Positions 31,600 to 50,950 of a stretch of 64,000 nt of DNA are shown in pieces (positions within the stretch are counted from its first letter, which is position 1; each line of letters starts with the position of its first letter). The stretch is from Acinetobacter sp. NCu2D-2 (GTDB lineage Bacteria > Pseudomonadota > Gammaproteobacteria > Pseudomonadales > Moraxellaceae). Made by a program: the position numbers and the translations under genes. The stretch is taken from positions 1,922,001-1,986,000 of the forward strand of contig NZ_CP015594.1 in the NCBI RefSeq assembly GCF_001647675.1, written 5' to 3'. The notes beneath the pieces were generated by a model, which was not told where the DNA came from, ran no database searches, and was given only the letters and a program-made list of their open reading frames with translations.

Positions 31600-31755
31600 T
31601 TAGTTTTTGCTATCAGCAGCTGGTGCAGCTTCACTTGCTGGAGCTTCATTTGCAGTTGTTGCGTCAACTGCTTCACTTGCTGGAGCTTCGTTAGCCAATA
31701 CGTTAAGTGACGCTACAAGTGCTAGACCTGCAAAAGTAAGTTTAACTAATTTCAT
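31600..31755 (-). CDS. Small secreted Ala/Glu-rich repeat protein
   Basis: This 51-codon frame has an AGAGG ribosome site 9 bases before the ATG and its own terminator. The first 20 residues (MKLVKLTFAGLALVASLTLA) form a signal peptide with a likely cleavage after LTLA. The mature part is acidic and contains NEAPASEA twice, spaced 14 residues apart, ending in APAADSKN. The same NEAPASEA coding unit is repeated in DNA, implying internal duplication. Probably a small periplasmic protein. Function unknown. Confidence 0.7.
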   Translation of the reverse strand: MKLVKLTFAGLALVASLNVLANEAPASEAVDATTANEAPASEAAPAADSKN

Positions 31756-31817: not shown

Positions 31818-32792
31818 ACGCCAATCTCAACTTTTTAAGTCATTGAAATAAAAAGGACATAACCTCATTTTAAATCCGTCTATGAAAATAAAATTACAGT
31901 TATGTCCACTGAAGAATTTATCATCATTGTCTATTTAATCATAGAGGAAATTTACCCAACTATAGTCTCTGAACCATTAAGAAAACGTGGTTTTCCACCG
32001 GCTTTAACCGATATTGAAATTATCACAATGCAAATTGTTGGTGAGTGTCTCAAAATGGATACGGATAAAAGCATATGGATGTTTTTTAAAAACAATTACT
32101 TAAGTTGGTTCCCTCATTTAGGTTCATATCCTAACTTTTGTAAGCATTGTGCAAACTTATGGCAAGTTCATCAAAAAATCACAGCCCAATTAACTGCACA
32201 TTATGGTCAGGATCATATTCATTTTATTGATGGATTTCCTATACCTGTTTGTCGTTATAGTCGAGCAAAAAGACACAAGAATTTTAAAGAATATGCAGGT
32301 TTTAGTTATTGTGCTGCACAACAAGAGAAATACTATGGTTTTAAAGGGCATCTTGTAATTAATTTGGAGGGTATGATTACTGGCTATACTTTCGCTCCAG
32401 CAAATGTAGATGAGCGTGATGTTGCACCAGAAATCACAGAAAATATTCATGGGTTACTAGGTGCAGATAAAGGTTACTTAAGACCCAGCTTGAAAGAATA
32501 CTATAAATTTCAGTATGTTGATCTACAAACTCCTTTAAGAAAGAATATGCCGGACTCTAGATCTCAAGAATCAATGAGGTTGCTTATGAGAGCACGAAGG
32601 AAAATTGAAACGGTCATTGGTCAATTAACTGATCGCTTTAATATTCAAAAAGTAAGGGCAAGAGATTTATGGCACTTATCGCATCGTTTTATCAGAAAGA
32701 TTTTGTCACATACGGTCTGCGTCGTTATGAATAAAAAATGTGGTTATTCGCCGATTCAATTTGAAAAGCTTATTTAAAGTTGAGATTGGCGT
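31818..32792 (+). mobile_element. IS982-family insertion sequence, copy A
   Basis: A 975-bp element bounded by perfect 17-bp inverted repeats (ACGCCAATCTCAACTTT at 31818-31834; its complement at 32776-32792). A 6-bp target duplication ATCTAT flanks it at 31812-31817 and 32793-32798. It contains one intact transposase gene. A nearly identical copy in opposite orientation lies at 49154-50128. Confidence 0.92.
31902..32777 (+). CDS. IS982-family transposase (copy A)
   Basis: A 291-residue DDE transposase. The catalytic residues can be placed at D in HFIDGFPIPVC, D in LLGADKGYL and E in RRKIETVIGQ, with the IS982-type spacing and the Cys/Arg after the first Asp. It reads through the right inverted repeat region, ending within 15 bases of the element end. 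It differs from copy B at two residues seen (Met versus Ile in SIWxFF, and Tyr versus His in KExAGF). It appears intact. Confidence 0.9.
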   Translation: MSTEEFIIIVYLIIEEIYPTIVSEPLRKRGFPPALTDIEIITMQIVGECLKMDTDKSIWMFFKNNYLSWFPHLGSYPNFCKHCANLWQVHQKITAQLTAHYGQDHIHFIDGFPIPVCRYSRAKRHKNFKEYAGFSYCAAQQEKYYGFKGHLVINLEGMITGYTFAPANVDERDVAPEITENIHGLLGADKGYLRPSLKEYYKFQYVDLQTPLRKNMPDSRSQESMRLLMRARRKIETVIGQLTDRFNIQKVRARDLWHLSHRFIRKILSHTVCVVMNKKCGYSPIQFEKLI

Positions 32793-32910
32793 ATCTATAT
32801 AAAAATGAACAATGTTCATTTTTATATTATTTAACTTTGAAATACTTTTCTACAATAAATAACGTATCGTTACATGAAAAAAATAATGCCAAAATGATGT
32901 TATAGATATA

Positions 32911-32940
32911 AAAAAAGCGCGGATCACCGCGCTTTTTTTT
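32911..32940 (-). terminator. Terminator of the PqqU-like receptor gene
   Basis: The hairpin AAAAAAGCGCGG ATCA CCGCGCTTTTTTTT lies just after the receptor stop codon at 32953. Confidence 0.9.
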
Positions 32941-32952
32941 ATTTAGAATGCA

Positions 32953-35130
32953 TTAAAAGCTTTTTGTTACGCTTAAACCAGCGCTCCAATTACGTCCTTC
33001 TGCAGGTTCAAAGAAACGTTTATTACTTTCATTAACAATCACAGAACCTGAATAATCTTTATCAAATAAATTATCTACACGAGCAAACGTATTGAATGCC
33101 CAATCATCAATTGCCCAGCGATATCCCATATTTGCAGCTGTAACAACATAGCTTGGAGCAGTATCTGAATTTGCATCATTCACATAAATTTTATCGCTAT
33201 AACGAACATCTACGCCCGCATTGAAACCTTGTTTAGGCTTCCATCCTAAGCTTAAAAATGCCTGATTTTTCGCAATACCTGGAATATAATTTCCATTCGG
33301 AATTTCAGCTACAGCAACTTTTCCATCTTTATCTAAAATTTCGGGAATATCCGCATCAAACTTAGCATCAATATAGCTATAACTTGCTTGCGCGGTTAAA
33401 TCACCCCATACATTTTTATTCCAAGACAACTCAACACCCTGTCTTAAGGTTTGATCAGCATTGCGGAAAGTTGATCGACCAGAATCACTCGCTGCTGAAA
33501 CAATATCATCTTGAGTTTTTGTATAGAAAGCTGCTGCAGTAAAATCTCCAAGCATATTTGAAGATTTTAAGCCTAGCTCATAAGTCTCACTTTCAGCAGC
33601 TTTAAGATCAAATGGACGACTATTATCAATATCAGCGGGATATGCCATCTCTGTAAAGGTTGGTGTTTCGAAACCTTGTGCATAGCTTGCATACGCCATA
33701 AGCTCAGGTATAACTTTCCAACTAATCGCTAAAGATGGTAATAATTTTTGATAATCAGTTTTGCCTGAGTTATCACCATTTTCAGCAGTAATGTAATGAT
33801 CTTCAGATTTAAAATGCACATTACTATAACGCAAGCCTGCATCGACATTGATAGCATCATTTACAGCATATGATGCTTGAAGATAAGGATCTATATTCCA
33901 TAGAGTATTGTCTTCATCACGGCGTAATTCACCCTTAACGCCAAATTGCGAATCACCGATAAAGTTTTGAAATCCTTTACGCTCCTCGGTCATACCATCA
34001 ATCGCAACACCTGCAATCAATTTTAAGTTGGGTAAGACTTCTTTGCCTGTCCAACGGATATCTGTGCCGTAAAAATTACGATCAAAATCAATTACCCCAC
34101 CTGCATGCTTTTTACCAAGCTGACTAGTAAAAGGTTTGCAAACATCTGTACCCGTTTCATAAGCACATTTAGGCGTTGATTGGTATTGGGTAACTGAACG
34201 TTGGCCCGCATAGACCATTGCATAAATTTCATTTAAATCATTAATGGGTTTATTCCAGGTTAAACCTGTTTGAACCTGTTCAATGTCTTTGCGTGCATTG
34301 TATTTAATAACATTCGGGACAACTTGTTTTGGATTAGCTTTCCAATCTTTTCTTTCCAAGCCCCCTGGATCAGCAGCATCAATTTTTACGTAGTTATTAA
34401 TCCAATTGATCTTTGAACCATCCTCCAAATTCCAAGTCAGTTTTGCATTGGTTAGTACTTTATTGGCATCACTGTGATCTCGGAAACCATCGGTATCAAA
34501 ATAAGATGAACTTAAGATATAACTTGGCTCATTAGCATTTTTTGCGCCACCTTGTAATACAAGATTGGCTTGCCCTTTTTGATTACTCCCCGCTGCATAG
34601 CCTAGCGTAATCGAATCATCCCCTTGTCCTTCTTTGGTTTTGGTTAAAATGGTACCGCCAGAAGAGTTACCATAAAGTGACGATAATCCACCACCCAAAA
34701 CCTCAATATGATCCAGACTATTCAAATCAATATTTGAAGTCTGACCTTGACCATCCGGCATAGTTGCAGGAATACCATCGACATATAAACGAATACCACG
34801 AACACCAAAAGTTGAACGGGCACCAAAACCACGCATCGAGATTTGTAAGTCTTGCGCGTAGTTTTCACGATTATTCAGTTGTAATCCTGGCACCCCTTTT
34901 AAAGTTTCCGACAAATTTACATTCATGCCTTTTTGTTGTTCTTGCTGAATGTAATACGCTGATGCAGGCGTTGCCATCACATCACGGTCAGTACGTGTTG
35001 ACTCAATGACAATCGTTTCAAGTTGTTGTACGGGCTGAGCGACTTCTTCAGCATAAACGTGGTGACTAATGAGGGTAACCAGTGCTGCCAAGGTCGAACG
35101 TGTATAGGGTAATCTCGAAGGAAAATACAT
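32953..35130 (-). CDS. pqqU: TonB-dependent receptor, PqqU/YncD-like (PQQ uptake)
   Basis: A 725-residue outer-membrane receptor when started at the ATG at 35130, which has AAAAGG 10 bases upstream; a TTG at 35139 is too close to it. Signal peptide to about residue 27 (HHVYA-E), TonB box-like segment (ETIVIEST), plug domain (about 45-165) and 22-strand barrel ending in aromatic F. The plug segment NYAQDLQISMRGFGARSTFG and RGIRLYVDGIPATMPDGQGQ match E. coli YncD (PqqU) nearly word for word, as do ADPGG, WNIDPYLQ and RVDNLFDK. PqqU imports the redox cofactor PQQ. The neighbour gcd needs PQQ, which supports the assignment. Siderophore receptors would differ in these loops. Confidence 0.88.
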   Translation of the reverse strand: MYFPSRLPYTRSTLAALVTLISHHVYAEEVAQPVQQLETIVIESTRTDRDVMATPASAYYIQQEQQKGMNVNLSETLKGVPGLQLNNRENYAQDLQISMRGFGARSTFGVRGIRLYVDGIPATMPDGQGQTSNIDLNSLDHIEVLGGGLSSLYGNSSGGTILTKTKEGQGDDSITLGYAAGSNQKGQANLVLQGGAKNANEPSYILSSSYFDTDGFRDHSDANKVLTNAKLTWNLEDGSKINWINNYVKIDAADPGGLERKDWKANPKQVVPNVIKYNARKDIEQVQTGLTWNKPINDLNEIYAMVYAGQRSVTQYQSTPKCAYETGTDVCKPFTSQLGKKHAGGVIDFDRNFYGTDIRWTGKEVLPNLKLIAGVAIDGMTEERKGFQNFIGDSQFGVKGELRRDEDNTLWNIDPYLQASYAVNDAINVDAGLRYSNVHFKSEDHYITAENGDNSGKTDYQKLLPSLAISWKVIPELMAYASYAQGFETPTFTEMAYPADIDNSRPFDLKAAESETYELGLKSSNMLGDFTAAAFYTKTQDDIVSAASDSGRSTFRNADQTLRQGVELSWNKNVWGDLTAQASYSYIDAKFDADIPEILDKDGKVAVAEIPNGNYIPGIAKNQAFLSLGWKPKQGFNAGVDVRYSDKIYVNDANSDTAPSYVVTAANMGYRWAIDDWAFNTFARVDNLFDKDYSGSVIVNESNKRFFEPAEGRNWSAGLSVTKSF

Positions 35131-35302
35131 AAATGACAAACCTTTTCTTTAGGCCATTCTATTCAGGTTATGCACGGTATGCACATCCCATTGATAATCT
35201 TAAAATCTATGATGACTATTTTAATGTGAAACAGCTTGATTTGATCTTGAAGTAACAAATCAACACTATGTTTCTATTCGCGATAATCAATATATATCGC
35301 AA

Positions 35303-35331
35303 TAAAAAAGCCTGACGAATCAGGCTTTTTT
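35303..35331 (-). terminator. Terminator of gcd
   Basis: The hairpin AAAAAAGCCTGA CGAA TCAGGCTTTTTT follows the gcd stop codon at 35353. Confidence 0.9.
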
Positions 35332-35352
35332 ATATTGAGTGATTAACTCAAA

Positions 35353-37755
35353 TTATTTTTTGTCTGGAAGTGCATAAGCAACGATAGAGTCACCCATTTT
35401 GGTACCAAACGAACCATGACCGCCCGCCATGATAACAACGTATTGTTTACCATTTGCTTCGTAAGTCATAGGAGTCGCTTGACCACCTGCAGGAAGACGA
35501 CCTTTCCATAGCTCATCACCGTTATTTACGTTGATCGCACGGATATAGTTATCTTGAGTTGCACCTAAGAACATCAAGTCACCCGCAGTTGAGATAGAAC
35601 CACCCAACATTGGAACACCCATTTTAAACGGAGGTAATGGAACGCCAGGCATACTGTCACGAACAGTACCGATACGACGTTTCCAAGCCACTTGATGTGT
35701 ATTTAAATCAACACCAGCAACGAAGCCCCAACCAGGTTGTTTACAAGGTAAACCAAATGGAGATAGGAATGGGTTCATTTCTACACCGTATGGCACGCCA
35801 TACATTGGTTGAACACCTGCTTCTGTACCCGCACCTTTCGCAGTCTTAGGACGGTTTGGATCTTGTGGAATCAATTTAGATACAAATGGCAAGCCAATTG
35901 GGTTCATAACAGCAATTTGACGGTCTGGGTTAACAGACATACCGCCCCATTCGAACACACCCAAGTTACCAGGGAAGACTAAAGTACCATTTTCTGAAGG
36001 TGGAGTATAAATACCTTCATAGTTCAATTTCTTGAATGACACACGGCATACTAATTGGTCAAACATAGTGGCACCCCACATTTGTTTGTCAGTTAGTTTT
36101 TCTTTTGGTGCCATATCGAAGTCAGAGAACGGTTGAGTTTTAGAGTACCATTCACCTTTAGTTTGAGGACCACGTTTCACAGATTGTGGAACTGGTTTCT
36201 CTGTAATTGGCACAATTGCTTTACCGTTACGACGGTCAAGAACGAAGGCATTACCTGTTTTAGTCAATACATAGATTGCTGGAACAGTTTTACCATCTTT
36301 ATCTTTGATATCAGCTAATGTAGGTTGAGACGGTACGTCCATATCCCACAAATCGTGATGTGTTGTTTGGAAGTTCCAAACCAACTTACCAGTGGTTGCA
36401 TTCAATGCAAGCATTGAGTTTGCATAACGTTCGTCAAGCTCTGTACGGTGACCACCGAAGATATCCGGAGTACCTACACCTGTTGGAACATATACGATGT
36501 CCAATTTAGCATCATATGCTAAAGGTGCCCAAGCGTTTGGTGAGTTGTTTACGAATTTTTGACCTGGAGCAGGGATCGCATTTGGATCTTCAGCACCTGT
36601 ATCAAATACCCAAAGAAGTTCACCAGTATTTACGTCATAACCACGGATCACACCAGATGGTTCTTCAGTAGAATAGTTATCGGTTGTAGAACCCGCGATA
36701 ACAATCGTCGTACCCGTAATCACTGGAGGAGAAGTTGGGATATAACCACCTGGATAAGGGAATGGCATATCTTTTTGAAGATCTACTTCACCATTTTTAC
36801 CGAAGTCTGAACATGGTTTACCTGTTTGTGGATTAACCGCAACAAGACGACCATCGTTCACAGGAAGAATGACTTTCTGTGGACATTCAGCAGATGTTGT
36901 TTTCTTCGCAGCAAGACTTGCTTCAAAACCTACAGTATTGTTTGCATCATAGTAAGACACACCACGACATGTTAAATGTTGGTAAGTGTTGTCTGCTTTT
37001 AATACAGGATCGTAGGTCCATTTTGCTTTACCAGTTGCAGGATCAAGCGCTGTCAATTTTTGGTGAGTTGTACATAAGTACATGTTGTCACCAACTTTAA
37101 TTGGCGTTACTTGGTTAGTTGTTTCACCTGAGTCGTTTTCAGTTTTAAATTCGCCAGTGTGATATTCCCATGCAACTTCTAAGTCTTTAACGTTGTCTGC
37201 ATTGATTTGTTTCAATGGAGAATAACGTAAACCTGTTTGAGTACGACCATATGCAGGCCAGTCTTCATCTGCAACACCAGGAATTGGTTGATGTTGAGCA
37301 GGTTGTTTAGACGTTAACTCACCACGAATTTCTTGTGGGTCGTTAAAGATAGAGTAGATCATTACCAAAATAGTAATAACCAATGAACCGCCTAGTGCGA
37401 TTTTTGCAGTTTTAGCATTATCAAAACCACGAGTTACCGCAGGAATCAATAACAATAAACCGAATAGACCTAAGATGTCTAAACGTGGAGCAAGCGCGAA
37501 GAAGTCAGAACCAACTTCCCAAAGGCCCCACACAACTGTACCCAATACGAGTGCAGCGTAAACAATCAGTGCAGAACTTTTTAGCTTTTGTAATAAAACT
37601 GCGGTCGCAATGAAGAGAATACCCGCGATGATGTAGTACCAAGACCCACCAAGAACCGCGAGATAAATCCCTCCGATCAGCAGCACTAAACCAAAAATAG
37701 CAGCAACAACTGCTAGGATGGTTTTAAGTACCGAACCTGATGATGAAGTATTCAT
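35353..37755 (-). CDS. gcd: Membrane-bound PQQ-dependent glucose dehydrogenase
   Basis: 800 residues when started at the ATG at 37755 (AGGTG ribosome site 6 bases upstream); a GTG start 9 bases earlier is possible. Five N-terminal membrane helices (about residues 10-145) anchor a periplasmic eight-bladed quinoprotein propeller (150-800). The sequence follows Acinetobacter calcoaceticus GdhA closely (for example GVADEDWPAYGRTQTGLRYS, TTHHDLWDMDVPSQP, GGQATPMTYE, MAGGHGSFGTKMGDSIVAYA). It oxidises glucose and other aldoses to lactones in the periplasm and feeds electrons to ubiquinone. PQQ synthesis genes are not in the window; the PqqU-like receptor next to it can supply the cofactor. Confidence 0.96.
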   Translation of the reverse strand: MNTSSSGSVLKTILAVVAAIFGLVLLIGGIYLAVLGGSWYYIIAGILFIATAVLLQKLKSSALIVYAALVLGTVVWGLWEVGSDFFALAPRLDILGLFGLLLLIPAVTRGFDNAKTAKIALGGSLVITILVMIYSIFNDPQEIRGELTSKQPAQHQPIPGVADEDWPAYGRTQTGLRYSPLKQINADNVKDLEVAWEYHTGEFKTENDSGETTNQVTPIKVGDNMYLCTTHQKLTALDPATGKAKWTYDPVLKADNTYQHLTCRGVSYYDANNTVGFEASLAAKKTTSAECPQKVILPVNDGRLVAVNPQTGKPCSDFGKNGEVDLQKDMPFPYPGGYIPTSPPVITGTTIVIAGSTTDNYSTEEPSGVIRGYDVNTGELLWVFDTGAEDPNAIPAPGQKFVNNSPNAWAPLAYDAKLDIVYVPTGVGTPDIFGGHRTELDERYANSMLALNATTGKLVWNFQTTHHDLWDMDVPSQPTLADIKDKDGKTVPAIYVLTKTGNAFVLDRRNGKAIVPITEKPVPQSVKRGPQTKGEWYSKTQPFSDFDMAPKEKLTDKQMWGATMFDQLVCRVSFKKLNYEGIYTPPSENGTLVFPGNLGVFEWGGMSVNPDRQIAVMNPIGLPFVSKLIPQDPNRPKTAKGAGTEAGVQPMYGVPYGVEMNPFLSPFGLPCKQPGWGFVAGVDLNTHQVAWKRRIGTVRDSMPGVPLPPFKMGVPMLGGSISTAGDLMFLGATQDNYIRAINVNNGDELWKGRLPAGGQATPMTYEANGKQYVVIMAGGHGSFGTKMGDSIVAYALPDKK

Positions 37756-37763
37756 ATCGAACA

Positions 37764-37921
37764 CCTATTTAAGATTCTTTTGAAAGCCCATGATTGGGAG
37801 ACTCCATGGGCACCATATTATTTTTAGTCACAAATACAGCTAAACCATCAGCATGCATCAATCATCAATGCATCAAAGTGCCGAAACAATCAAGAGTGTA
37901 TTTGCAACCAAAAACTGCGTT
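37764..37921. other. oprB-gcd intergenic region with an inverted repeat
   Basis: GCCCATG (37787-37793 region) and CATGGGC (about 37806-37812) form a 7-bp stem with an 11-base loop just upstream of gcd. On the minus strand the following bases are TTTCAAAAG, so it is at most a weak terminator; an operator or mRNA processing hairpin is also possible. Confidence 0.35.
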
Positions 37922-39181
37922 TTAGAATGCTGTGCTAAATTTAATACCGCCAACCCAAGCATTTTCACCGATATTTTTGCCACCTACGTTATGAACGTAT
38001 TGAACATTAGGACGGATCGTAAGCCAGTTAGTTGCATGAATACCGTAGTAAATTTCTGCATCAAACTCTTCGCCACGGTTTTCAATATCATCATTATTCA
38101 TGTTGATTCGACCAAAACCGATAGCGATTTCATCTTTAGGACGTGAGTCCATTGCACCTTTATAAACAAGGCCGATGTTTTGAGTATCTTGCTTCTCGTT
38201 AGTTTTAGCATCATGAACAGTTACATTCACAAAACCAGTTAAACCACGAGACGCATCACCGTTATGTGCAGTCAGTTGTTGTTTTGCAACAATCCAACCA
38301 CCTTGATGATGATCAGTCTCATTTTGAAGCTCTAAAGGTGTTACACCGTCAAGAATTTTCGCATCTGCAGTACTGTAGTAGTAACCTGCACGGTATTCAC
38401 CAGGAAGTTTTTGTGCACCTAGTTTTGGTGTCCACACAACTTCAGCTGGAAGAATTGCACCCTTAGAACCATCAGTACTTAAGTTAAAACCTTTACCGCG
38501 GTTTAGGTTTTCAGGGTTGTACTCGTAAGCACCCACTTGAGCATAAACTTCAGGTGTAACATTGTATTTCACACGTGCAGCCCATTGAGATACAGGCCAG
38601 TTATACCATTGATCACCAACAGCATTACCCACTTGTGAACCACACAGTGTTAAGTTTTGGAAGTCACAGTCGAAACTGTTGAAGTCTTCACCTTCACCGA
38701 AACGACCGACTTTTACATCTAATTTTTGATCTAAGAATTTTTTCTTAATCCAAAAATCAGTTAAACGCCAAGTTTGTCCACGACCCCAAACTTCTTGAAC
38801 TGAACTTAAATGACCATTCAAAGCATCAGAAGTATTAGAGAGATTGCGACCATTACGTTCAGTCACGGTAATTTGTGCTTCAGTGTCTTTCCAACCTGCA
38901 ATTTTTTCGAGGTCAAGATGAGCACCTAACGCAAATTGATCTGCATATTCAGTACCATGGCTAGTCGAACGTTTTGCATCAAGCACAGTTGCCATTTCGC
39001 CAGTATAACCAAAGCTGAAATCGACACCTTTTTGTTGAAGTGCAGTACGTTGACCATTCCAATCACCAAGCATCCATTGACCTTCTGGGTCGAATGCATC
39101 AGCAGCATGTGTAGCTGTATTTGCCAATAGCAAAGCAGCTAAGGATGTGTATACAGCCTTAGATAACGGGGAGAGAAACAT
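37922..39181 (-). CDS. oprB: OprB-family carbohydrate-selective porin
   Basis: A 419-residue outer-membrane porin. Signal peptide to about residue 27 (LANTATHAA-DA). The mature protein starts with the GQWMLGDWNGQRTALQQKGVD pattern of OprB-family proteins and ends in an aromatic residue (KFSTAF) typical for barrel insertion. In Pseudomonas and Acinetobacter such porins admit glucose into the periplasm, where Gcd can oxidise it. It lies upstream of gcd on the same strand (about 165 bases between), which supports the role in glucose uptake. Confidence 0.9.
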   Translation of the reverse strand: MFLSPLSKAVYTSLAALLLANTATHAADAFDPEGQWMLGDWNGQRTALQQKGVDFSFGYTGEMATVLDAKRSTSHGTEYADQFALGAHLDLEKIAGWKDTEAQITVTERNGRNLSNTSDALNGHLSSVQEVWGRGQTWRLTDFWIKKKFLDQKLDVKVGRFGEGEDFNSFDCDFQNLTLCGSQVGNAVGDQWYNWPVSQWAARVKYNVTPEVYAQVGAYEYNPENLNRGKGFNLSTDGSKGAILPAEVVWTPKLGAQKLPGEYRAGYYYSTADAKILDGVTPLELQNETDHHQGGWIVAKQQLTAHNGDASRGLTGFVNVTVHDAKTNEKQDTQNIGLVYKGAMDSRPKDEIAIGFGRINMNNDDIENRGEEFDAEIYYGIHATNWLTIRPNVQYVHNVGGKNIGENAWVGGIKFSTAF

Positions 39182-39471: not shown

Positions 39472-39504
39472 AATGCCAGTCAGTTAAGAAATTGACTGGC
39501 ATTT
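39472..39504 (-). terminator. Terminal hairpin of the IS4-family element
   Basis: AATGCCAGTCA (39472-39482) pairs with TGACTGGCATT near 39493-39503, giving an 11-bp stem. The transposase stop codon (39484-39486) is in the loop. The left IS end is thus part of the 3' hairpin of its own transposase transcript. Confidence 0.6.
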
Positions 39505-40788
39505 TCTTGGATATTTTTGTGCTTTAATTTTCACTACTCGCGGACATTGCCTTTGCCTTTTTTCAGGTAATACAAATATTTTAGATTGTTCAAATAATTG
39601 TGCTAAATGTTTGGGTAGATTTCCTGCTGATTCTAAAGGTGTGTGCCTTAAGATATTGATAATACTCATAGATGCAATATGGAAACTGATCCTTAAAGGA
39701 CTCACCTTTGCATGTTCAGCGATAAACCTCATCTGTCTTCTTAAGATATTATAAGCAATAAATACCCCCCACAATTCTTGATAGACCAAATCAGGTTGTT
39801 TGCTTCTTAAAATTCTTGCATCCTGTAAATCACTTTTAATTTCCCGATAACACATTTCTATTTCCCAACGCTGGATATAAAGCATTGCAAGGTCTTTGAA
39901 TGGATAAACTTCAGAATCTGTTAATGATGTAATGTAACGTCTTATTTTTCCTGCATATTCAACTTCAATTAAACGTGCTTCCCAATAGTCACCCAATGAC
40001 GGATTTATCTTTTTTGCTCTTGCTGAAACAGGCATTTTGATCTGAAAGTCATGGGCCGCATTATGATGAATCACTTCATAACGCAGGTTGTCCTTTGCTC
40101 GCATCAACCAATGACTCTCTTCTGCCTGAGATTGCCAACTCACTAAAAAATCAGCAGAGAAGTAAGCACGATCAAATAGGGTAATACTGCGAACTGGTGC
40201 TTTTAATTGACTGGCTAAGGTTAATTCACCTTGATCCATACTGCCAATTTGGGCATCAATCATTTCATGTGTATTGGTATTCACCAGGCAAGTCGCTCTG
40301 ACTTGTGGGTAAGGGGCAGCTGCTGTTTTGCCTTTGGATGAACCAAAGTGCTTAAAGTTTTCTTCTGTATGAGGCATAGACCAAACCACACCATCTACAG
40401 CACAAACGCATAGACCGTGAAAGTTGCTATATTGTTGTTGTGAGTCTTTAAACCATGCCTGACTTAATGTCGAAAATAAAGCACTCATGGGCTCTAAGCC
40501 TAAGCGCTGTCTTGCTTGTACGGATGCACTCGGTACACAGTATTCTGCCGTACCGAAAACAAGTTGCAATTGTTGAACCACATACCAAATCGGTTGATTT
40601 CGAAATAGAGCAAGTCCGATTACCAGCCAAACAACATGTTCAGCAGGCAGTTTTCTTTTTCGAATTGATGCTTTACCTGTTTGGTTTAAGCAATCTTCAA
40701 TCCAGTTTAAATCAATCAATTCACTGAATTGTGAAAGTGAAGGTAGGGTTTGTTTTAATGTTAAATCTAAATTCTGAGATAAATTCAT
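39484..40788 (-). CDS. IS4-family transposase
   Basis: A 434-residue DDE transposase. The YREK signature of the IS4 family is complete (Y-IQ-R-WEI-E-MCYREI-K). The first catalytic Asp is in CAVDGVVWSMP and the second in TLFDRAYFSAD. The gene uses almost the whole element: the start codon is 2 bases after a terminator-like hairpin and the stop codon lies within the left inverted repeat. Intact. Confidence 0.92.
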   Translation of the reverse strand: MNLSQNLDLTLKQTLPSLSQFSELIDLNWIEDCLNQTGKASIRKRKLPAEHVVWLVIGLALFRNQPIWYVVQQLQLVFGTAEYCVPSASVQARQRLGLEPMSALFSTLSQAWFKDSQQQYSNFHGLCVCAVDGVVWSMPHTEENFKHFGSSKGKTAAAPYPQVRATCLVNTNTHEMIDAQIGSMDQGELTLASQLKAPVRSITLFDRAYFSADFLVSWQSQAEESHWLMRAKDNLRYEVIHHNAAHDFQIKMPVSARAKKINPSLGDYWEARLIEVEYAGKIRRYITSLTDSEVYPFKDLAMLYIQRWEIEMCYREIKSDLQDARILRSKQPDLVYQELWGVFIAYNILRRQMRFIAEHAKVSPLRISFHIASMSIINILRHTPLESAGNLPKHLAQLFEQSKIFVLPEKRQRQCPRVVKIKAQKYPRKCQSIS

Positions 40789-40885: not shown

Positions 40886-43800
40886 CTAGAATAGAATTGA
40901 TTTATTTTGTAGTAGATCTTCAAGCGTAATTGCTGAAGTTTGATTTGTTAACTCAATTAATGCTGTCGAAATAAGTGGACCACTACTGCCATCTCGATCA
41001 ATTGATAAAGTTACTGTAGATACAGCCTCATTATAAGTTAAACTGATATATTGATCCAAATTATGTGCATTCACACTTTGTCCCTGGAGCAGCTCTGAAA
41101 TATCAATTTTATCACCTTGCATCAGACTAAAATCAGTCCAAGTATCTTTACCATTACCACCTGTAGCATCCGTATTATTAAGTAAATCAAAGACTACTGT
41201 ATCAGCACCAAGTCCACCAGTAATAGTATCATTACCAGAACCACCATTTAGATAGTCATCACCTGCTCCACCATTGAGGGTATCATTACCTGATCCACCA
41301 CGGATGATGTCGTTAGCCGAACCACCCGTAAGCACATCATCACCATCGTATCCATAAATACGAACTGCACTAGTCAAAGTTGAGAAATTTAACTCATTAT
41401 CAGTATCGTCACCTTCTTTTAAGTAGCTTGGAGTGTCGCCACCTAATAAACCATCTAACAAGTTGAGATTTACTAAGCTACCGACGTTTTGTGTAGTTGA
41501 ACCTACACTATCAGTAGCGACAACTGTCACAGATTGGCCTATATTCAATCCAAGTAAAGATAAGCTCGATCTTACAGAGCCCAACATTTCTGTAATTTCT
41601 TGGATATCTAAGTACTCACCAGAAGCAGATTCAATAATAATATTCACACTTCCAGTATAAGTAGAGATAGCCGGTGTAACAACTACACCACCTATGATCA
41701 CGGCAGGTATCGTAATTTCCGTCCAATCTGGTGTTACAGATACACTGTAGCCAAATTCATTAGCTAAAGTTTGCGAGAACAACCAAGTTGGAATAGAAGT
41801 ACCAACACCTCCTGTAATAGCTAGCTTTAACTCTACTTTCGTCAGATCATCATTTAAATCGCCGACTACAAATTGTTGCTGTGATAAATCAATTAGATCT
41901 GCAGCATTACCACCTATTAAGCCTAGCAAGCTACCATCACTCGATTGAACCATAGGACGCACACTATCTACAACTGTGTACTCAAATGTATCAGTTGTTG
42001 TATTATCTGCAAGGTCAGTTACTCTCGCAGTAAAAGTATAGGTTCCTGGGGCTGGATTTGATCCTTCATCGAAGATAAATGACCAATTACCATTAGACCC
42101 AATAGTGCCAGTCGCTGGATTGTTTGTACTACCTGGGTTTCCAGCCGTAAGTTGATCTGACCATACTTCAATAAATGCTCCAGGCTCTCCTCGACCATAA
42201 AGTGTAGGAGCATTATCATCTGTCACTTCGCCAAAGTAGAAGTTACCCGTTTGACCCACAGCATCATAACCAGAAATAAAGTTCACATTAATTGATTGAT
42301 CAACCGTAATTTGACCTAAATCGAAAGTACCACTTTCTGAACCAACTGCATTAAGTTGACGTACTTCAACTGAAGTATAGACACCTTCCTCCAGTACAAA
42401 GCTTGTACCTACACCATTGATCCATGGACCATCATCTGTACGGTATTGCCAAGTTGCACCTGCTTCTAGACCACTAACAGTAATTTCACCATTACTGGTA
42501 TTACCATCAGTTTGACTTGAACCCGTATCAATATATGTTGCAGTTGGAACTGTAACATCAACATCGCCAATATTAATAGTAAGCGTCGCTTGACCACTTA
42601 ATTCACCGTTCGCTGCGGTATAAGTAAATACTTCCGTTTGCCCTAAACCGTCTGTATTAGTCAAAGTATAGGTATAACCACCATCCGTATTGAGTACTAA
42701 TACACCGTATGTTGTTTGAATTGTGATATTGCCGTTACCATCAGGTGAGTAAATCAAGCCATCATATTCCACACGACTTACGGTTGTACCAGCTGTTGGG
42801 AAATCAGCACCTGAATCACCATCTTCAATAATCACTTCACCTTCTAAAGAAGTATTAGTTAATTGAATCTCATTGACTTGCGTAATTACGGTAGTTTCCT
42901 GCCATACTGTCAACAAATTACTAAGCAAAGCATCTGCAATAGCATCTACAATCTCATCAGCATAATTGACAAGGCCTACTGAATTTAAAGTTTCCCTCAC
43001 AATATTAACAAGTACACCTACACCTAGCCCATCGACAAGATCAAGTGCAACTTCTAAAGCACTACGTACTGGAGTCAATAGAATCGGTAAAATATTAAAT
43101 TGATCAGTTAAGGTATTGATAACAGTATCTAAGATCAGGTCTTGATTATCTTGACCAAGTACAACGCCATTTTCACCTAAATCAGCTAATGTTAAACCAT
43201 TAACCAAACTACCTAACGTACTTTCATCATTGCTTACAACGACTGTATAGGCTCCAGCAGGTAATCCTTCTACTGTCACAGTTAAGCCATCGTCACCAAT
43301 TAAACCAAGTACTTGCAAACCAGCAACATCGCCCAAAAGTGAATTTTCAGTGACTGCTGAATACACAACAACACCATACTCATTTACGATATCTAAACGG
43401 AACGCATCAGCCACAGCAAGTAATGACGTTTGTTGAATTGTCACTGTTAAAGTACTTAGAGGACCCAAAGTGACAGAAACGACTGAATCAGTACCCGAGG
43501 TTGATTGACCTAAACCAATAACGTCAATATTGTTATTCACAACAGGATCGCCGACTACAACAGCGAATGTGCCAACATCAAGATCATCAAAGTCATCGTT
43601 GGCATCTAGAGGTAAAGTGACCGTTGTTGTAGATGAATCTGACTCATTACCGGCAGCGTCGGTCGCAGTAGCTGTTACCACGTCACCTGCAGAAAGACCT
43701 GGATTTGGCACACTCCAGTTGCCATTTGTACCTGCTATAGCGGTCGCTGTTGTATTGTCTGGGAATGTGACTGTCACTGTTGAACCAGGCTCTGATTTAC

Positions 43801-46800
43801 CAGTGATATCAGGAGCAGGATCTAAACCAAGATCTTGGATAAGATTAATCACTGGAGGCTGAGGTGCAGTCACATCAAGTAAACCAATATTTATAGTTAA
43901 AGTTGCATCATCTGTATAGGTGCCATTTACAGCGGTATATGTAAATACTTCAGTTTGATCAATACCATTTAGATCGTTCAAGGTATAAACATAGCTACCT
44001 GTAGTTGGATTGATAACTAAGATGCCATATTCTGTTTGAACTGTAATTTCTCCATCGACTGGTAAGAATACCTCACCCTCATATAAAACTTGAGTAATTG
44101 TAGTTCCGGCTACCGGTGCATCAGCGCCTTGGCCATCATCAGCAATCAATTCACCAGTAAGAACATTGTCAGCAAAAGTAACCGCATCTAATTGGGTGGT
44201 AACTGTAGTTTCTTGCAATACTGTAAGTAAATTACTTAGTAAAGCATTTGAAACAGCATCGATGATCTCATCAGCATAGCTCACAAGTCCGAAGGTATTT
44301 AATGTATTCGTAATAACGCCTACAGCTACCCCCACACCCACACCATCTAACACATCAAGTGCAAGCTCAAGTGCTGCACGTAATGGATTTAAAACTATCG
44401 GTAGAATATTAAACTGATCACTTAATGCATTGACTACTGTATCTAGGATTAAATCTTGGTTATCTTGACCAAGCACAACTCCATTTTCACCTAAATCAGC
44501 AAGAGTTAAACCATCAAGCAACTGATCTACGGTTCCTTGGTCATTGCGTACTAAAACATAATAGGTTCCTGGTGCAAGCCCTTCGATAGTGGCTGTTAAA
44601 CCATCATCTCCGACAATACCAAGTATTGGTAAACCTGCAACATCACCTAGCAATGAGTTTTGGGTAACTGCCGAATATACAACTACACCATTTTCGTCGA
44701 CCAAATCTAGACGGAAAGCATCACCTACTGCAAGTAAAGCTGCTTGCTTTACGGTGACAGTTAAGTTACCTAAACTATTTGGTTGGACAACCACTTCAAC
44801 TGCAGCATCAGTACCATCACTTGATTCGAGTAAACCAATTACGTCGACGTTTGACGTAGAATTTGGTTCTCCTGGTGTAACTACTGGCTCATCTAGCACT
44901 AGATTATCGATATCGTCATTTGCGACAAATAATTTGACTTCATACGCTAACGATTCACTCACAGGATCTGATGGATTACCTGCTGCATCATTCACCACCA
45001 CACTGACAGTCACTTCTGGAGTTGTGGCACCCGCGAGTACATCACCTGGGATCGACGCTGTGAAACTGCCATCACTGTTGTATGTCGCTGGATAGTCTTC
45101 TCCATCAATCGTCACTGTGACTTCAACAGTTGCTGGATCTGCATCATCTGGTAAGCCGTCAATTTGCCCTGTGATTTCGATCTCACCTTCTGATTCTGCA
45201 AGATTGACTACACCATCTTCCGCGATCGGATCAATCGTGATCTCAATCTCACTGTTATCTGGTGCTTCAAGGTCTATGTCATATGCCTGTGTTTCAGTGA
45301 CAGGATCCGATGGGTTACCTGCTGCATCACTCACCACCACACTGACAGTCACTTCTGGAGTTGTAGCTCCCGCAAGTACATCACCTGGGATCGATGCTGT
45401 GAAACTGCCATCACTGTTGTATGTCGCTGGATAGTCTTCGCCATCAATCATAACTGTGACTTCAACAGTTGCTGGATCTGCATCATCTGGTAAGCCGTCA
45501 ATTTGCCCTGTGATTTCGATCTCACCTTCTGATTCTGCAAGATTGACTACACCATCTTCCGCGATCGGATCAATCGTGATCTCAATCTCACTGTTATCTG
45601 GTGCTTCAAGGTCTATGTCATATGCCTGTGTTTCAGTGACAGGATCCGATGGGTTACCTGCTGCATCACTCACCACCACACTGACAGTCACTTCTGGAGT
45701 TGCAGCTCCCGCAAGTACATCACCTGGGATCGATGCTGTGAAACTGCCATCACTGTTGTATGTCGCTGGATAGTCTTCTCCATCAATCGTAACCGTGACT
45801 TCAACACTTGCTGGATCTGCATCATCTGGTAAGCCGTCAATTTGCCCTGTGATTTCGATCTCACCTTCTGATTCTGCAAGATTGACTACACCATCTTCCG
45901 CGATCAGATCAATCGTAATTTCTATCTCAGTACTGTCTGGTGGGGTTTGATCTACAGTAAAGCTATCAGTCACTGTTTGAGAAATAACGCCGTCATATTC
46001 CGCATACACTTCAACATTATACGTATCATCTACCAAGCTACCCACTGGTACATTCGCTGTCCATGTACCATCGAGACCCACTATCGCTGAAATTAATTCT
46101 CCATTCAATAAAACATGAACATCAGCTTCGACATGACTCACTGTGCCTGAAAGAATTAAAGTTGGTGCGAGTGCGGCTAACTCTGCAGCATTCAGATAAT
46201 CATCATCAGCTACATCGTTTAAGGTAACCAATGGTAATTTCACGACCACCGGATCACTAACATTACCTGCAGCATCTTGGGCTGAAATATTGATATTTTG
46301 ATCGAGTGGTAAGTCATTCGATAAAATTACTGACCAATCACCATCCGTGTCGTCTGCTATCACGATGATTGGGATAGATGAATCAGGAATCGTAATTACA
46401 ACTGTGGCACCAGGTTCAGTTATACCTTTTAAATCATAGTTCCCGTCATCTCCTGGAGTAATTGTGATATTGATTAGTTCTGGTACATCAACATCAACTT
46501 CATAAGCTAACGATTCACTCACAGGATCTGATGGGTTACCTGCTGCATCATTCACCACCACACTGACGGTCACTTCTGGAGTTGCAGCTCCCGCAAGTAC
46601 ATCACCTGGGATCGATGTTGTGAAACTGCCATCACTGTTATATGTCGCTGGATAGTCTTCTCCATCAATCGTCACTGTGACTTCAACAGTTGCTGGATCT
46701 GTATCATCTGGTAAGCCGTCAATTTGCCCTGTGATTTCGATCTCACCTTCTGATTCTGCAAGATTGACTACACCATCTTCCGCGATCGGATCAATCGTGA

Positions 46801-48790
46801 TCTCAATCTCACTGTTATCTGGTGCTTCAAGGTCTATGTCATATGCCTGTGTTTCAGTGACAGGATCCGATGGGTTACCTGCTGCATCACTCACCACCAC
46901 ACTGACAGTCACTTCTGGAGTTGTAGCTCCCGCAAGTACATCACCTGGGATCGATGCTGTGAAACTGCCATCACTGTTGTATGTCGCTGGATAGTCTTCG
47001 CCATCAATCATAACTGTGACTTCAACAGTTGCTGGATCTGCATCATCTGGTAAGCCGTCAATTTGCCCTGTGATTTCGATCTCACCTTCTGATTCTGCAA
47101 GATTGACTACACCATCTTCCGCGATCGGATCAATCGTGATCTCAATCTCACTGTTATCTGGTGCTTCAAGGTCTATGTCATATGCCTGTGTTTCAGTGAC
47201 AGGATCCGATGGGTTACCTGCTGCATCACTCACCACCACACTGACGGTCACTTCTGGAGTTGTAGCTCCCGCGAGTACATCACCTGGGATCGATGCTGTG
47301 AAACTGCCATCACTGTTGTATGTCGCTGGATAGTCTTCTCCATCAATCGTAACCGTGACTTCAACACTTGCTGGATCTGCATCATCTGGTAAGCCGTCAA
47401 TTTGCCCTGTGATTTCGATCTCATCTTCTGATTCTGCGAGATTGACTGTGCCATCTCCTGCAATTGGATCAATCGTGATCTCAATCTCACTGTTATCCGG
47501 TGCTGTGGTATCTGGTGCATTGACAGTGGTTGGTTCAGACTCGTTACCTGCTTCATCTTTAGCAACAACATTGATTTCTTCACCATTGGTCAGCGGCTCA
47601 TCTAGCTCTACACTAAAGTCACCATTTTCATCCGCAGTGTCTTCACCAATCACATTACCGTCTTTATCAGTGATAATGACCGTTGCCCCCGATTCAGTTT
47701 TACCCGTCACCGTTGTGCCGTCTTCGCTCACTACAACATCAGTTGGTGCACCCGGTGCTTCAAGGTCGATGTCATATGCCTGTGTTTCAGTGACAGGATC
47801 TGATGGATTACCTGCTGCATCACTCACCACCACACTGACGGTCACTTCTGGAGTTGTAGCTCCCGCGAGTACATCACCTGGGATCGATGCTGTGAAACTG
47901 CCATCACTGTTGTATGTCGCTGGATAGTCTTCTCCATCAATCGTAACCGTGACTTCAACACTTGCTGGATCTGCATCATCTGGTAAGCCGTCAATTTGCC
48001 CTGTGATTTCGATCTCATCTTCTGATTCTGCGAGATTGACTGTGCCATCTCCTGCAATTGGATCAATCGTGATCTCAATCTCACTGTTATCCGGTGCTGT
48101 GGTATCTGGTGCATTGACAGTGGTTGGTTCAGATTCATTGCCTGCTTCGTCTTTGGCAACAACATTGATTTCTTCACCATTGGTCAGTGGCTCATCAAGT
48201 TCAACCGTAAAGTCGCCATTTTCATCCGCAGTATCTTCACCAATCACGTTACCATCTTTATCAGTGATAATGACCGTTGCCCCCGATTCAGTTTTACCTA
48301 TCACTGTTGTGCCGTCTTCGCTTACCACTACATCACTTGGCGGATTTGGCGGGGTCTTATCTATAAAGTTTCCTCCACTAGAACTACCCCCATCAGCTGC
48401 AGCTGCGATTCCACCTACAGCAGCAATACCTGCAATCCAAGGCCAAATTGCCCCACCTTCATTTAAAGGAGCATCTGTTATTGGATGATATTTAATTACA
48501 TTTAATAAATTGCCAGCATCATCTGTAAATTCAACCCAATATAATTTCTCACCATTCTGAAACTCAATACGATTTTGCTCTAAAGGAAAATCAAAATAGT
48601 TTTCAATAACAATCACATCACCGTTTTTTAATGTAATTACGGCTGACTGACCATTTCTTGTTATATTTGCGACATCGTTAATGTCAGCTTCAATTCTAAC
48701 GATAGAATTACGATCTAAAATTACTACATTATTTTGAACATTTTGGATGGGTTGCCCATCTTGACTTGAAAACACATTGATATTCGCCAT
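40886..48790 (-). CDS. Giant type I-secreted Bap-like adhesin
   Basis: 2634 residues. The N-terminal 110 residues (MANINVFSSQDG..., then EFQNGEKLYWVEF) look like the BapA prefix domain. A hydrophobic Ala/Gly segment (114-132, AIWPWIAGIAAVGGIAAAA) may hold the protein in its exporter, as in LapA-type adhesins. Then come about eight Ig-like repeats of 113 residues or related units, with ASIPGDVLAGA and VSVVVSDAAGNPSDPV cores. Two long modules follow (DDIDNL- and DDFDDL-type, with IGDDGLT). C-terminal RTX repeats (about 2477-2533, GGSGNDTLNGGAGDDYLNGG) bind calcium, and a type I secretion signal ends the protein. It matches Acinetobacter Bap-like proteins. No secretion genes are in the window. 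Role: surface attachment and biofilm, inferred. Confidence 0.88.
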   Translation of the reverse strand: MANINVFSSQDGQPIQNVQNNVVILDRNSIVRIEADINDVANITRNGQSAVITLKNGDVIVIENYFDFPLEQNRIEFQNGEKLYWVEFTDDAGNLLNVIKYHPITDAPLNEGGAIWPWIAGIAAVGGIAAAADGGSSSGGNFIDKTPPNPPSDVVVSEDGTTVIGKTESGATVIITDKDGNVIGEDTADENGDFTVELDEPLTNGEEINVVAKDEAGNESEPTTVNAPDTTAPDNSEIEITIDPIAGDGTVNLAESEDEIEITGQIDGLPDDADPASVEVTVTIDGEDYPATYNSDGSFTASIPGDVLAGATTPEVTVSVVVSDAAGNPSDPVTETQAYDIDLEAPGAPTDVVVSEDGTTVTGKTESGATVIITDKDGNVIGEDTADENGDFSVELDEPLTNGEEINVVAKDEAGNESEPTTVNAPDTTAPDNSEIEITIDPIAGDGTVNLAESEDEIEITGQIDGLPDDADPASVEVTVTIDGEDYPATYNSDGSFTASIPGDVLAGATTPEVTVSVVVSDAAGNPSDPVTETQAYDIDLEAPDNSEIEITIDPIAEDGVVNLAESEGEIEITGQIDGLPDDADPATVEVTVMIDGEDYPATYNSDGSFTASIPGDVLAGATTPEVTVSVVVSDAAGNPSDPVTETQAYDIDLEAPDNSEIEITIDPIAEDGVVNLAESEGEIEITGQIDGLPDDTDPATVEVTVTIDGEDYPATYNSDGSFTTSIPGDVLAGAATPEVTVSVVVNDAAGNPSDPVSESLAYEVDVDVPELINITITPGDDGNYDLKGITEPGATVVITIPDSSIPIIVIADDTDGDWSVILSNDLPLDQNINISAQDAAGNVSDPVVVKLPLVTLNDVADDDYLNAAELAALAPTLILSGTVSHVEADVHVLLNGELISAIVGLDGTWTANVPVGSLVDDTYNVEVYAEYDGVISQTVTDSFTVDQTPPDSTEIEITIDLIAEDGVVNLAESEGEIEITGQIDGLPDDADPASVEVTVTIDGEDYPATYNSDGSFTASIPGDVLAGAATPEVTVSVVVSDAAGNPSDPVTETQAYDIDLEAPDNSEIEITIDPIAEDGVVNLAESEGEIEITGQIDGLPDDADPATVEVTVMIDGEDYPATYNSDGSFTASIPGDVLAGATTPEVTVSVVVSDAAGNPSDPVTETQAYDIDLEAPDNSEIEITIDPIAEDGVVNLAESEGEIEITGQIDGLPDDADPATVEVTVTIDGEDYPATYNSDGSFTASIPGDVLAGATTPEVTVSVVVNDAAGNPSDPVSESLAYEVKLFVANDDIDNLVLDEPVVTPGEPNSTSNVDVIGLLESSDGTDAAVEVVVQPNSLGNLTVTVKQAALLAVGDAFRLDLVDENGVVVYSAVTQNSLLGDVAGLPILGIVGDDGLTATIEGLAPGTYYVLVRNDQGTVDQLLDGLTLADLGENGVVLGQDNQDLILDTVVNALSDQFNILPIVLNPLRAALELALDVLDGVGVGVAVGVITNTLNTFGLVSYADEIIDAVSNALLSNLLTVLQETTVTTQLDAVTFADNVLTGELIADDGQGADAPVAGTTITQVLYEGEVFLPVDGEITVQTEYGILVINPTTGSYVYTLNDLNGIDQTEVFTYTAVNGTYTDDATLTINIGLLDVTAPQPPVINLIQDLGLDPAPDITGKSEPGSTVTVTFPDNTTATAIAGTNGNWSVPNPGLSAGDVVTATATDAAGNESDSSTTTVTLPLDANDDFDDLDVGTFAVVVGDPVVNNNIDVIGLGQSTSGTDSVVSVTLGPLSTLTVTIQQTSLLAVADAFRLDIVNEYGVVVYSAVTENSLLGDVAGLQVLGLIGDDGLTVTVEGLPAGAYTVVVSNDESTLGSLVNGLTLADLGENGVVLGQDNQDLILDTVINTLTDQFNILPILLTPVRSALEVALDLVDGLGVGVLVNIVRETLNSVGLVNYADEIVDAIADALLSNLLTVWQETTVITQVNEIQLTNTSLEGEVIIEDGDSGADFPTAGTTVSRVEYDGLIYSPDGNGNITIQTTYGVLVLNTDGGYTYTLTNTDGLGQTEVFTYTAANGELSGQATLTINIGDVDVTVPTATYIDTGSSQTDGNTSNGEITVSGLEAGATWQYRTDDGPWINGVGTSFVLEEGVYTSVEVRQLNAVGSESGTFDLGQITVDQSINVNFISGYDAVGQTGNFYFGEVTDDNAPTLYGRGEPGAFIEVWSDQLTAGNPGSTNNPATGTIGSNGNWSFIFDEGSNPAPGTYTFTARVTDLADNTTTDTFEYTVVDSVRPMVQSSDGSLLGLIGGNAADLIDLSQQQFVVGDLNDDLTKVELKLAITGGVGTSIPTWLFSQTLANEFGYSVSVTPDWTEITIPAVIIGGVVVTPAISTYTGSVNIIIESASGEYLDIQEITEMLGSVRSSLSLLGLNIGQSVTVVATDSVGSTTQNVGSLVNLNLLDGLLGGDTPSYLKEGDDTDNELNFSTLTSAVRIYGYDGDDVLTGGSANDIIRGGSGNDTLNGGAGDDYLNGGSGNDTITGGLGADTVVFDLLNNTDATGGNGKDTWTDFSLMQGDKIDISELLQGQSVNAHNLDQYISLTYNEAVSTVTLSIDRDGSSGPLISTALIELTNQTSAITLEDLLQNKSILF
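41190..41360 (-). other. RTX calcium-binding nonapeptide repeats in the adhesin
   Basis: The translated segment reads as five GGxGxDxLx-type nonapeptides (GYDGDDVLTGG, SGNDTLNGG, AGDDYLNGG, SGNDTITGG, LGADTVVFD), forming a parallel beta roll that folds on binding extracellular calcium after secretion. Confidence 0.85.
44990..45930 (-). repeat. 339-bp tandem repeats of the adhesin, C-proximal block
   Basis: Three successive near-identical 339-bp units (anchor sequence GACTTCAACAGTTGCTGGAT or its CACTTGC variant, at about 45118, 45457 and 45796) code for 113-residue Ig-like domains. Units differ at only a few positions, for example GTC/ATA and CAGTTG/CACTTG. Confidence 0.88.
46550..48060 (-). 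repeat. 339-bp tandem repeats of the adhesin, N-proximal block
   Basis: Four further anchor positions at about 46678, 47017, 47356 and 47950 have spacings 339, 339 and 594. The 594 spacing is the 339-bp unit plus a 255-bp unit coding for the VVVSEDGTTVTGKTESGATV-type domain. These units are nearly identical to the block at 44990-45930. Confidence 0.88.
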
Positions 48791-50851: not shown

Positions 50852-50950
50852 CCACACACCTCATATATCGTATTTTTGCAAAAGCTGATTTCAAAAATCG
50901 ACACATATTAACTGAATTCAGTTTTTTAAGGGTATGCTCATTGAAGTGAT

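Follow-up and report, generated by a model that had tools for sequence, protein, structure and literature searches.

We identified a locus in Acinetobacter sp. NCu2D-2 that in all likelihood scavenges the cofactor pyrroloquinoline quinone (PQQ) for sugar oxidation in a bacterium apparently unable to make PQQ itself. The locus lies in a stretch of 64,000 nucleotides (the window), which comprises bases 1922001-1986000 of contig 1 of a 3.05 Mb genome in two contigs, rated 99.94% complete. In the order of reading on the minus strand, it consists of genes for an OprB-type porin, a PQQ dehydrogenase (gcd) and a TonB-dependent receptor (pqqU). A receptor, gcd and porin on one strand in one locus had already been claimed in a reading of the letters alone (the sequence-only reading), and this claim stands, as all three frames are intact and their domain matches exceed the cut-offs. 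The gaps between the listed frames are 157 bp (porin-gcd) and 213 bp (gcd-pqqU). Judged by sequence, the likely start codons are ATG 37755 for gcd (listed start GTG 37764) and ATG 35130 for the receptor (listed start TTG 35139). The features of the locus are as follows:

37922..39181, minus strand: OprB-type porin, 419 amino acids, first gene of the locus (open reading frame; PF04966, 365.9 bits; PDB 4gey)
35353..37764, minus strand: membrane-bound PQQ dehydrogenase of the gcd type, 803 amino acids (open reading frame; TIGR03074; PF01011)
35302..35333, minus strand: hairpin resembling an intrinsic terminator, with flanking A and T runs, in the gap between gcd and pqqU (folding against shuffles)
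32953..35139, minus strand: PqqU-type TonB-dependent receptor, predicted PQQ importer, 728 amino acids by the TTG start (NF041535; 6v81/9c4o; residues)
32910..32939, minus strand: terminator-like hairpin 3' of pqqU, end of the locus (folding against shuffles)

Identity of the receptor

The receptor carries both expected Pfam domains over cut-off (Plug, 60 bits; the TonB barrel TonB_dep_Rec_b-barrel, 171 bits). Its closest solved chains are those of YncD/PqqU of E. coli, 6v81 (E 7e-174) and 9c4o (E 4e-173), which align over residues 42-725; the next-best solved chain is found at E 5e-12. Its nearest named relatives are Acinetobacter proteins, those of A. lwoffii and A. variabilis coming first at 76% identity; the search behind this may omit entries from this genome or from very close ones. 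The host belongs to Acinetobacter and is close to A. lwoffii.

PqqU proteins have been defined by Y99 (F or W being accepted), R304 and R365, and K274 and R536 are also important in E. coli PqqU (Munder et al., 2025; PMC12124388). The E. coli numbering was placed by hand on the alignment with 6v81 and 9c4o. The residues F111, R314 and R387 of the window receptor correspond to Y99, R304 and R365, so that the published signature is present, and both accessory residues are kept (K284 for K274 and R555 for R536). The sequence-only reading had seen the exact plug signatures of E. coli YncD/PqqU; the plug stretch is indeed closely alike, and exactness fails at the stacking residue, which is F instead of Y99. 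The three-residue signature is complete in 111 of 111 receptor rows (the window and 110 fetched rows, including 8 duplicates, namely L021, which is the window gene itself, and seven genes present twice [L061-L067]). As a rough control, with alignments at 25-30% identity, the full signature was found in none of the six other TonB receptors detected in the genome. A siderophore receptor was considered and ruled out by the binding residues together with the co-occurrence with PQQ dehydrogenases described below. Judging from its residues, the receptor is very probably a PqqU-type PQQ importer.

The dehydrogenase, the porin and a second PQQ enzyme

The gcd product matches TIGR03074, the glucose/quinate/shikimate dehydrogenase family, with 1132.8 bits (cut-off 832.65) over positions 1-783 of 783, and PF01011 with 760.6 bits. 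TIGR03074 does not separate glucose, quinate and shikimate as substrates; the window enzyme pairs with an OprB porin, as described for gdhA, and is 39-41% identical to the quinate-cluster type. Its identity is 87-91% to the dehydrogenases of four named loci in which the gene is linked to pqqU (L061-L064) and 74-76% to those of ten genomes in which it is unlinked (L051-L060). The porin matches PF04966 (OprB) with 365.9 bits (cut-off 22.9) and the PDB entry 'Porin B' 4gey at E 2.8e-146.

A search of the genome with the PQQ propeller domain PF01011 gave two matches, the window gcd and an 804-amino-acid relative elsewhere, so that Gcd is not the sole client for PQQ. This second membrane PQQ dehydrogenase (L141:3721-6135, plus strand; C1 of the same genome, near 1.62 Mb) scores 911.6 bits with TIGR03074. 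It is 38-39% identical to gcd and 45-48% identical to the PqqU-adjacent enzymes of the loci L102, L103, L115 and L116. The glucose-to-gluconate module proposed in the sequence-only reading is supported, with the amendments that a second PQQ enzyme is encoded elsewhere and that a terminator-like hairpin separates gcd from pqqU.

PQQ synthesis and the fate of gluconate

No match to pqqB or pqqC was found in the nearly complete genome, and no match to pqqE above the cut-off (best 27.5 bits against 381), indicating that PQQ must come from outside. The weak match to the pqqE model presumably reflects other radical-SAM proteins. The same pqqC model matches 43 of 175 Acinetobacter genomes; none of 14 control genomes passes the cut-offs for pqqB, pqqC and pqqE, so that the pqqB and pqqE searches are without a positive control of their own. 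By these searches the host is apparently unable to make PQQ, in agreement with the earlier suspicion that the strain may not make it.

The genome was also searched for enzymes that would bring gluconate into metabolism. For 6-phosphogluconate dehydratase (edd) no match above the cut-off was found in the genome (best 229 bits against 708, probably a relative of dihydroxy-acid dehydratase), and the same holds for gluconokinase (best 21 bits against 113.75). Two of the 14 control genomes pass the cut-off in each of these searches. Gluconate is therefore probably an end product, with electrons and acid as the likely sole yield of glucose oxidation. In line with this, a review states that in many A. 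baumannii strains glucose is broken down as far as gluconate but does not serve as a carbon source (PMC10269061).

Co-occurrence of PqqU and PQQ dehydrogenases in Acinetobacter

Retention and loss of PqqU go hand in hand with those of membrane PQQ dehydrogenases throughout the genus. Among the 175 Acinetobacter genomes, 143 have both, 29 have neither, one has only the dehydrogenase (G152, a 64% complete assembly) and two have only the receptor (G138 and G143). Presence of the receptor was scored at a best E below 1e-80, which includes a fragment in G143 and partial copies in G081, G101 and G127; the dehydrogenase was counted as present if over the cut-off, as in 144 of the 150 genomes with any match. 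The receptor match in G143 reaches only E 1e-87, and both G114 and G143 carry only short, interrupted remnants of the dehydrogenase. In G138 the PqqU gene (L142:4467-6593, minus strand) adjoins a gene homologous to the one at 50207-50857 of the window. The 14 kb fetched around it gave neither a porin nor a gcd match, so that both seem to have been lost there.

To take descent into account, a DNA tree of nrdA was made for 80 of the 175 genomes, comprising all 29 with neither gene, the three exceptions and 48 that we chose; this tree and the receptor tree described below are quick trees with one support value each. On the nrdA tree at least 18 changes of the dehydrogenase and 17 of the receptor are required. 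Among 15 independent pairs on well supported branches that differ in the dehydrogenase, the receptor changed the same way in 13, the opposite way in one and not at all in one (sign test p 0.0018).

No pqqC is present in 101 of the 143 genomes with both genes, and PqqU is carried by 42 of the 43 pqqC genomes, the remaining one being G152. On the tree, no association between the receptor and pqqC was found in 7 independent pairs (median p 0.375). As the receptor does not track pqqC and PQQ producers keep it, PqqU follows the enzyme rather than the loss of synthesis.

Gene neighbourhoods of pqqU

Among the matches listed, 25 of 150 receptor genes have a TIGR03074 gene within 1 kb, which in all 25 cases shares the strand and lies upstream; in another 71 the distance is 14-43 kb. 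Second gene copies are incompletely covered in this count, and receptor and dehydrogenase counts are those among the matches listed. Given the common strand and upstream position of all 25 neighbours, the adjacency is not due to chance. The 150 receptor genes are made up of 118 whose upstream region was read, 24 already known to be adjacent and 8 that were omitted (G075:C9, G138, G072, G135, G101, G127 and two pieces in G081). In the 118 genes read, 16 lie directly after a dehydrogenase gene, 72 adjoin mutM or mpg and 5 have another neighbour. The other 25 have an OprB-like porin gene of another subtype 20-81 bp upstream, with no dehydrogenase between (for example L066:6660-7958).

In total 40 receptor genes adjoin a dehydrogenase gene: 23 in the PqqU clade of the window, 14 of the quinate type and 3 other or untyped (G026, G004:C224 and G075:C26). 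The dehydrogenase was checked as gcd by identity in the window and L061-L064 only among the 23, and in the 14 it is 89-100% identical to the enzyme of locus L083 (Acinetobacter sp. ANC 4204). The gene order in L083 is pcaHG, 3-dehydroquinate dehydratase, a beta-helix protein, an OprB porin, a TIGR03074 dehydrogenase and pqqU. This array is a quinate cluster that ends with pqqU; the qui names follow PMC4213383 and common usage. The quinate-type linkage is carried, for example, by A. tandoii (L087).

The receptor tree contains 69 rows, with L021 replaced by the window and L048, L050 and L061-L065 dropped as duplicates; it includes 5 of the 39 non-Acinetobacter loci, and the long branches that meet in its outgroup are to be read with care. 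Six quinate-linked rows form one clade (support 100), and all 23 gcd-linked rows fall inside another clade of 27 rows (support 100), in the other four rows of which the dehydrogenase is missing or off the contig. The pqqU gene thus adjoins that of a dehydrogenase in two distinct clades of the receptor tree, one with gcd and one with the quinate-cluster type. Neighbouring receptor and dehydrogenase genes were also found in 4 of the 39 non-Acinetobacter loci (L102, L103, L115 and L116). Four genomes (G004, G042, G075 and G107) carry two or three PqqU genes each, which differ in their neighbours and of which one or more adjoin a dehydrogenase gene; G004 is a 360-contig assembly with 7% contamination.

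Transcription signals, flanking elements and descent

The hairpin at 35302-35333 between gcd and pqqU folds at -20.3 kcal/mol for a 55-nucleotide stretch (z -6.7), and none of 200 shuffles folds as well; a pattern scan did not list it. The hairpin at 32910-32939 after pqqU folds at -18.9 kcal/mol (z -6.5, again none of 200 shuffles). A promoter scan gave 12 sites, fewer than the mean of 26 in shuffles, and was not used. Nothing in the base composition of the locus is plainly foreign. The locus is flanked by two insertion sequence (IS) elements:

31902..32777, plus strand: IS982-family transposase, downstream flank, no part in the function (NF033520, 273.9 bits, cut-off 130)
39484..40788, minus strand: IS4-family transposase, upstream of the porin gene, may influence transcription of the locus (NF033592, 225.8 bits, cut-off 115)

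A. lwoffii S246-3 (L061) has the same oprB-gcd-pqqU stretch close to nrdB-nrdA, as in the window, and no match to either flanking transposase over half its length was found in that locus. In the other named A. lwoffii locus (L062) the 18 kb fetched do not include nrdB and nrdA. A composite cassette borne by IS elements was ruled out, as the two elements belong to different families and the L061 stretch has no transposase match. The L061 arrangement suggests that the gene order is probably old in the group and predates the IS elements. The window groups with G173, G100, G019, G023 and G113 in the receptor tree, and the nrdA tree places G100 and G019 elsewhere. This mismatch between the two trees hints at horizontal spread of the locus.

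Two further genes of the window adjoin the IS elements. At 40886-48790 (minus strand), next to the IS4 element, lies the gene of a BapA-like protein of 2634 residues that contains Ig-like repeats and ends in RTX nonapeptide repeats. A secreted-looking peptide of 51 residues with EAPASEA repeats, recognised by eye, is encoded at 31600-31755 (minus strand), between the IS982 element and a TetR gene.

Comparison with known systems

The closest known system is that of E. coli, in which pqqU and gcd are not known to be neighbours, whereas the window has both in one locus with a porin and no entry enzyme of the Entner-Doudoroff pathway was found for gluconate in its genome. The E. coli PqqU (YncD)/Gcd system is reportedly also the subject of work by Hantke and Friz from 2022. 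In E. coli, PQQ-dependent growth through PqqU and Gcd was shown (PMC12124388). The two systems have in common a host that apparently does not produce PQQ, a PqqU-type receptor and a membrane PQQ dehydrogenase, putatively for glucose in the window, and the binding residues are alike except for Y99F and N477T.

Within Acinetobacter, an oprB-gdhA pair in which the porin gene adjoins that of the membrane glucose dehydrogenase has been reported as ubiquitous, with pqq clusters in fewer than 20% of Acinetobacter outside the ACB clade (PMC9162365). The window differs in having pqqU as a third gene in a genome without pqqC; the text of PMC9162365 carries no mention of TonB. The L083 gene order up to the dehydrogenase is that of the pca-qui cluster of A. 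baylyi with the quinate dehydrogenase QuiA (PMC4213383, PMC12455638). In A. baylyi ADP1, which has a pqq cluster (PMC4213383), quiA is followed by the convergent pobS (PMC12455638), whereas in L083 pqqU comes straight after the dehydrogenase gene and the genome (G104) has no pqqC match. In four Burkholderiales PqqU also lies beside other PQQ genes (PMC12124388), but there these are synthesis genes, whereas here it is the gene of a PQQ-using enzyme in a genome without pqqC.

In the main text of PMC12124388 the reference list is the one place where Acinetobacter is mentioned, and the passages on PQQ enzymes of A. baumannii in PMC10112286 and PMC8451467 mention no PQQ receptor. No paper on PQQ uptake by Acinetobacter was found in the literature searched, which covers titles and the start of abstracts and few subscription papers. 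PqqU, Gcd and the oprB-gdhA pair are each already known; the linkage of pqqU and the genus-wide pattern are new to this literature.

Proposed mechanism and alternative explanations

In the proposed mechanism the porin would admit sugar to the periplasm, and the TonB-driven receptor would draw trace PQQ across the outer membrane, as its residues and its co-occurrence with the dehydrogenases suggest. PQQ would then bind apo-Gcd in the periplasm. The catalytic domain of enzymes of the Gcd family faces the periplasm, so that no inner-membrane PQQ carrier would be needed. The Gcd family oxidises aldoses to lactones and passes the electrons to ubiquinone, and the holo-enzyme would act in this way on glucose and other aldoses. 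Periplasmic oxidation by the membrane glucose dehydrogenase and ubiquinone as electron acceptor of a PQQ dehydrogenase have been described (PMC9162365 and PMC4213383, respectively). Gluconate would probably be released, the gain being proton-motive force and acid but no carbon, and Gcd activity would be switched on by PQQ-producing neighbours. As the sequence-only reading had supposed, PqqU very probably supplies scavenged cofactor to Gcd, by the evidence of residues and gene distribution.

Several observations weigh against this reading. The receptor scores 744.2 bits with NF041535, still its best NCBIfam match, against a cut-off of 1200; it is therefore not filed as that equivalog and is PqqU only in the residue sense of Munder et al. 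The L083 receptor is likewise below this cut-off (811.5 bits). N477 of E. coli is replaced by T496 in the window and by T in 71 of 71 aligned Acinetobacter rows, and kept as N in 36 of 39 non-Acinetobacter rows; N447E, which may mean N477, is printed among the variants growing like wild type (PMC12124388). R536 is replaced in 7 of the 71 Acinetobacter rows (K in 6, L in 1). The negative result on PQQ synthesis rests on pqqB, pqqC and pqqE, and pqqA and pqqD were not searched for. With a strong hairpin between gcd and pqqU, one locus is certain and one operon is not, and with IS elements on both flanks the expression of the locus is not assured. G138 is a true exception, a one-contig genome with an intact receptor in which no PQQ-propeller dehydrogenase was found. 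Finally, all 40 receptor genes linked to a dehydrogenase are in genomes without pqqC, whereas 42 of the 102 others that were classified are in genomes with it (raw p 6e-8); with phylogeny taken into account, the difference is not significant (median p 1 for 5 independent pairs). Lack of pqqC as the explanation of linkage was therefore set aside as suggested by raw counts and unsupported with phylogeny; that linkage of pqqU to a dehydrogenase goes with the loss of PQQ synthesis is nevertheless likely.

Three other explanations were weighed. TonB receptors as a class mostly take up iron complexes, and the score below the curated PqqU cut-off and the complete genome G138 could likewise mean that the receptor imports another ligand, an iron chelate or something else, and adjoins gcd by accident. 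This is very improbable, since the residues important for PQQ in E. coli are kept, with Y99 as F, receptor and dehydrogenase are lost together across the genus, and dehydrogenase neighbours occur not only in two distinct PqqU clades but also in four loci outside Acinetobacter. Gcd could also be fed mainly by PQQ diffusing through porins, with PqqU minor in nature or mainly serving the enzyme at L141:3721-6135. That E. coli does not need PqqU at 100-3000 nM PQQ (PMC12124388) is in line with diffusion, as is the second TIGR03074 enzyme (911.6 bits), which would share the PQQ pool. Against this, the pairing of pqqU with a dehydrogenase gene has persisted in 23 genomes from a single PqqU clade, and the loss of PqqU together with the dehydrogenases argues that it matters; we regard this explanation as improbable, if slightly less so than that of another ligand.

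The locus might, lastly, be a decaying relic in which Gcd is idle for want of PQQ synthesis and IS elements are closing in. The IS982 and IS4 transposases on either side, the 29 genomes with neither gene and the short interrupted dehydrogenase remnants of G114 and G143 would agree with decay. All three frames are intact in this genome, however, and a relic on its way out would hardly be shared by 101 of the 143 two-gene genomes, which all lack pqqC; the 29 genomes with neither gene show that both tend to disappear once they are no longer used. We consider a relic just as improbable as another ligand, and prefer PQQ scavenging for sugar oxidation.

Implications

Acinetobacter var. lwoffi is reported to make glucose dehydrogenase as apo-enzyme, and classical work on Acinetobacter glucose dehydrogenase and its cofactor includes that of van Schie from 1984 and 1985. 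Conditional activity, as the pattern found here suggests, would offer a molecular route for this work. A review inferred that A. baumannii strains without a pqq cluster have likely lost glucose dehydrogenase activity (PMC10269061). In contrast to that reading, the 101 two-gene genomes without pqqC suggest that the activity should be conditional on outside PQQ. 'Acid from glucose' may then depend on neighbours or medium instead of being a fixed species trait.

The evidence from gene neighbours indicates that PQQ enzymes are served by PqqU orthologues whose scores fall far short of the NCBI cut-off. What is surprising about the locus is not its parts, which are of known kinds, but the pattern across the genus and the repeated linkage of the genes. 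The chances are about even that Acinetobacter responded to the loss of PQQ synthesis on two or more occasions by a move of pqqU to the gene of the enzyme it serves, in one PqqU clade behind oprB-gcd and in another to the end of a pcaHG-quiBC-porin-quinate dehydrogenase array, which would make sugar and quinate oxidation facultative and PQQ from neighbours a shared good in the genus. The pattern suggests that an otherwise idle enzyme works whenever neighbours supply PQQ.

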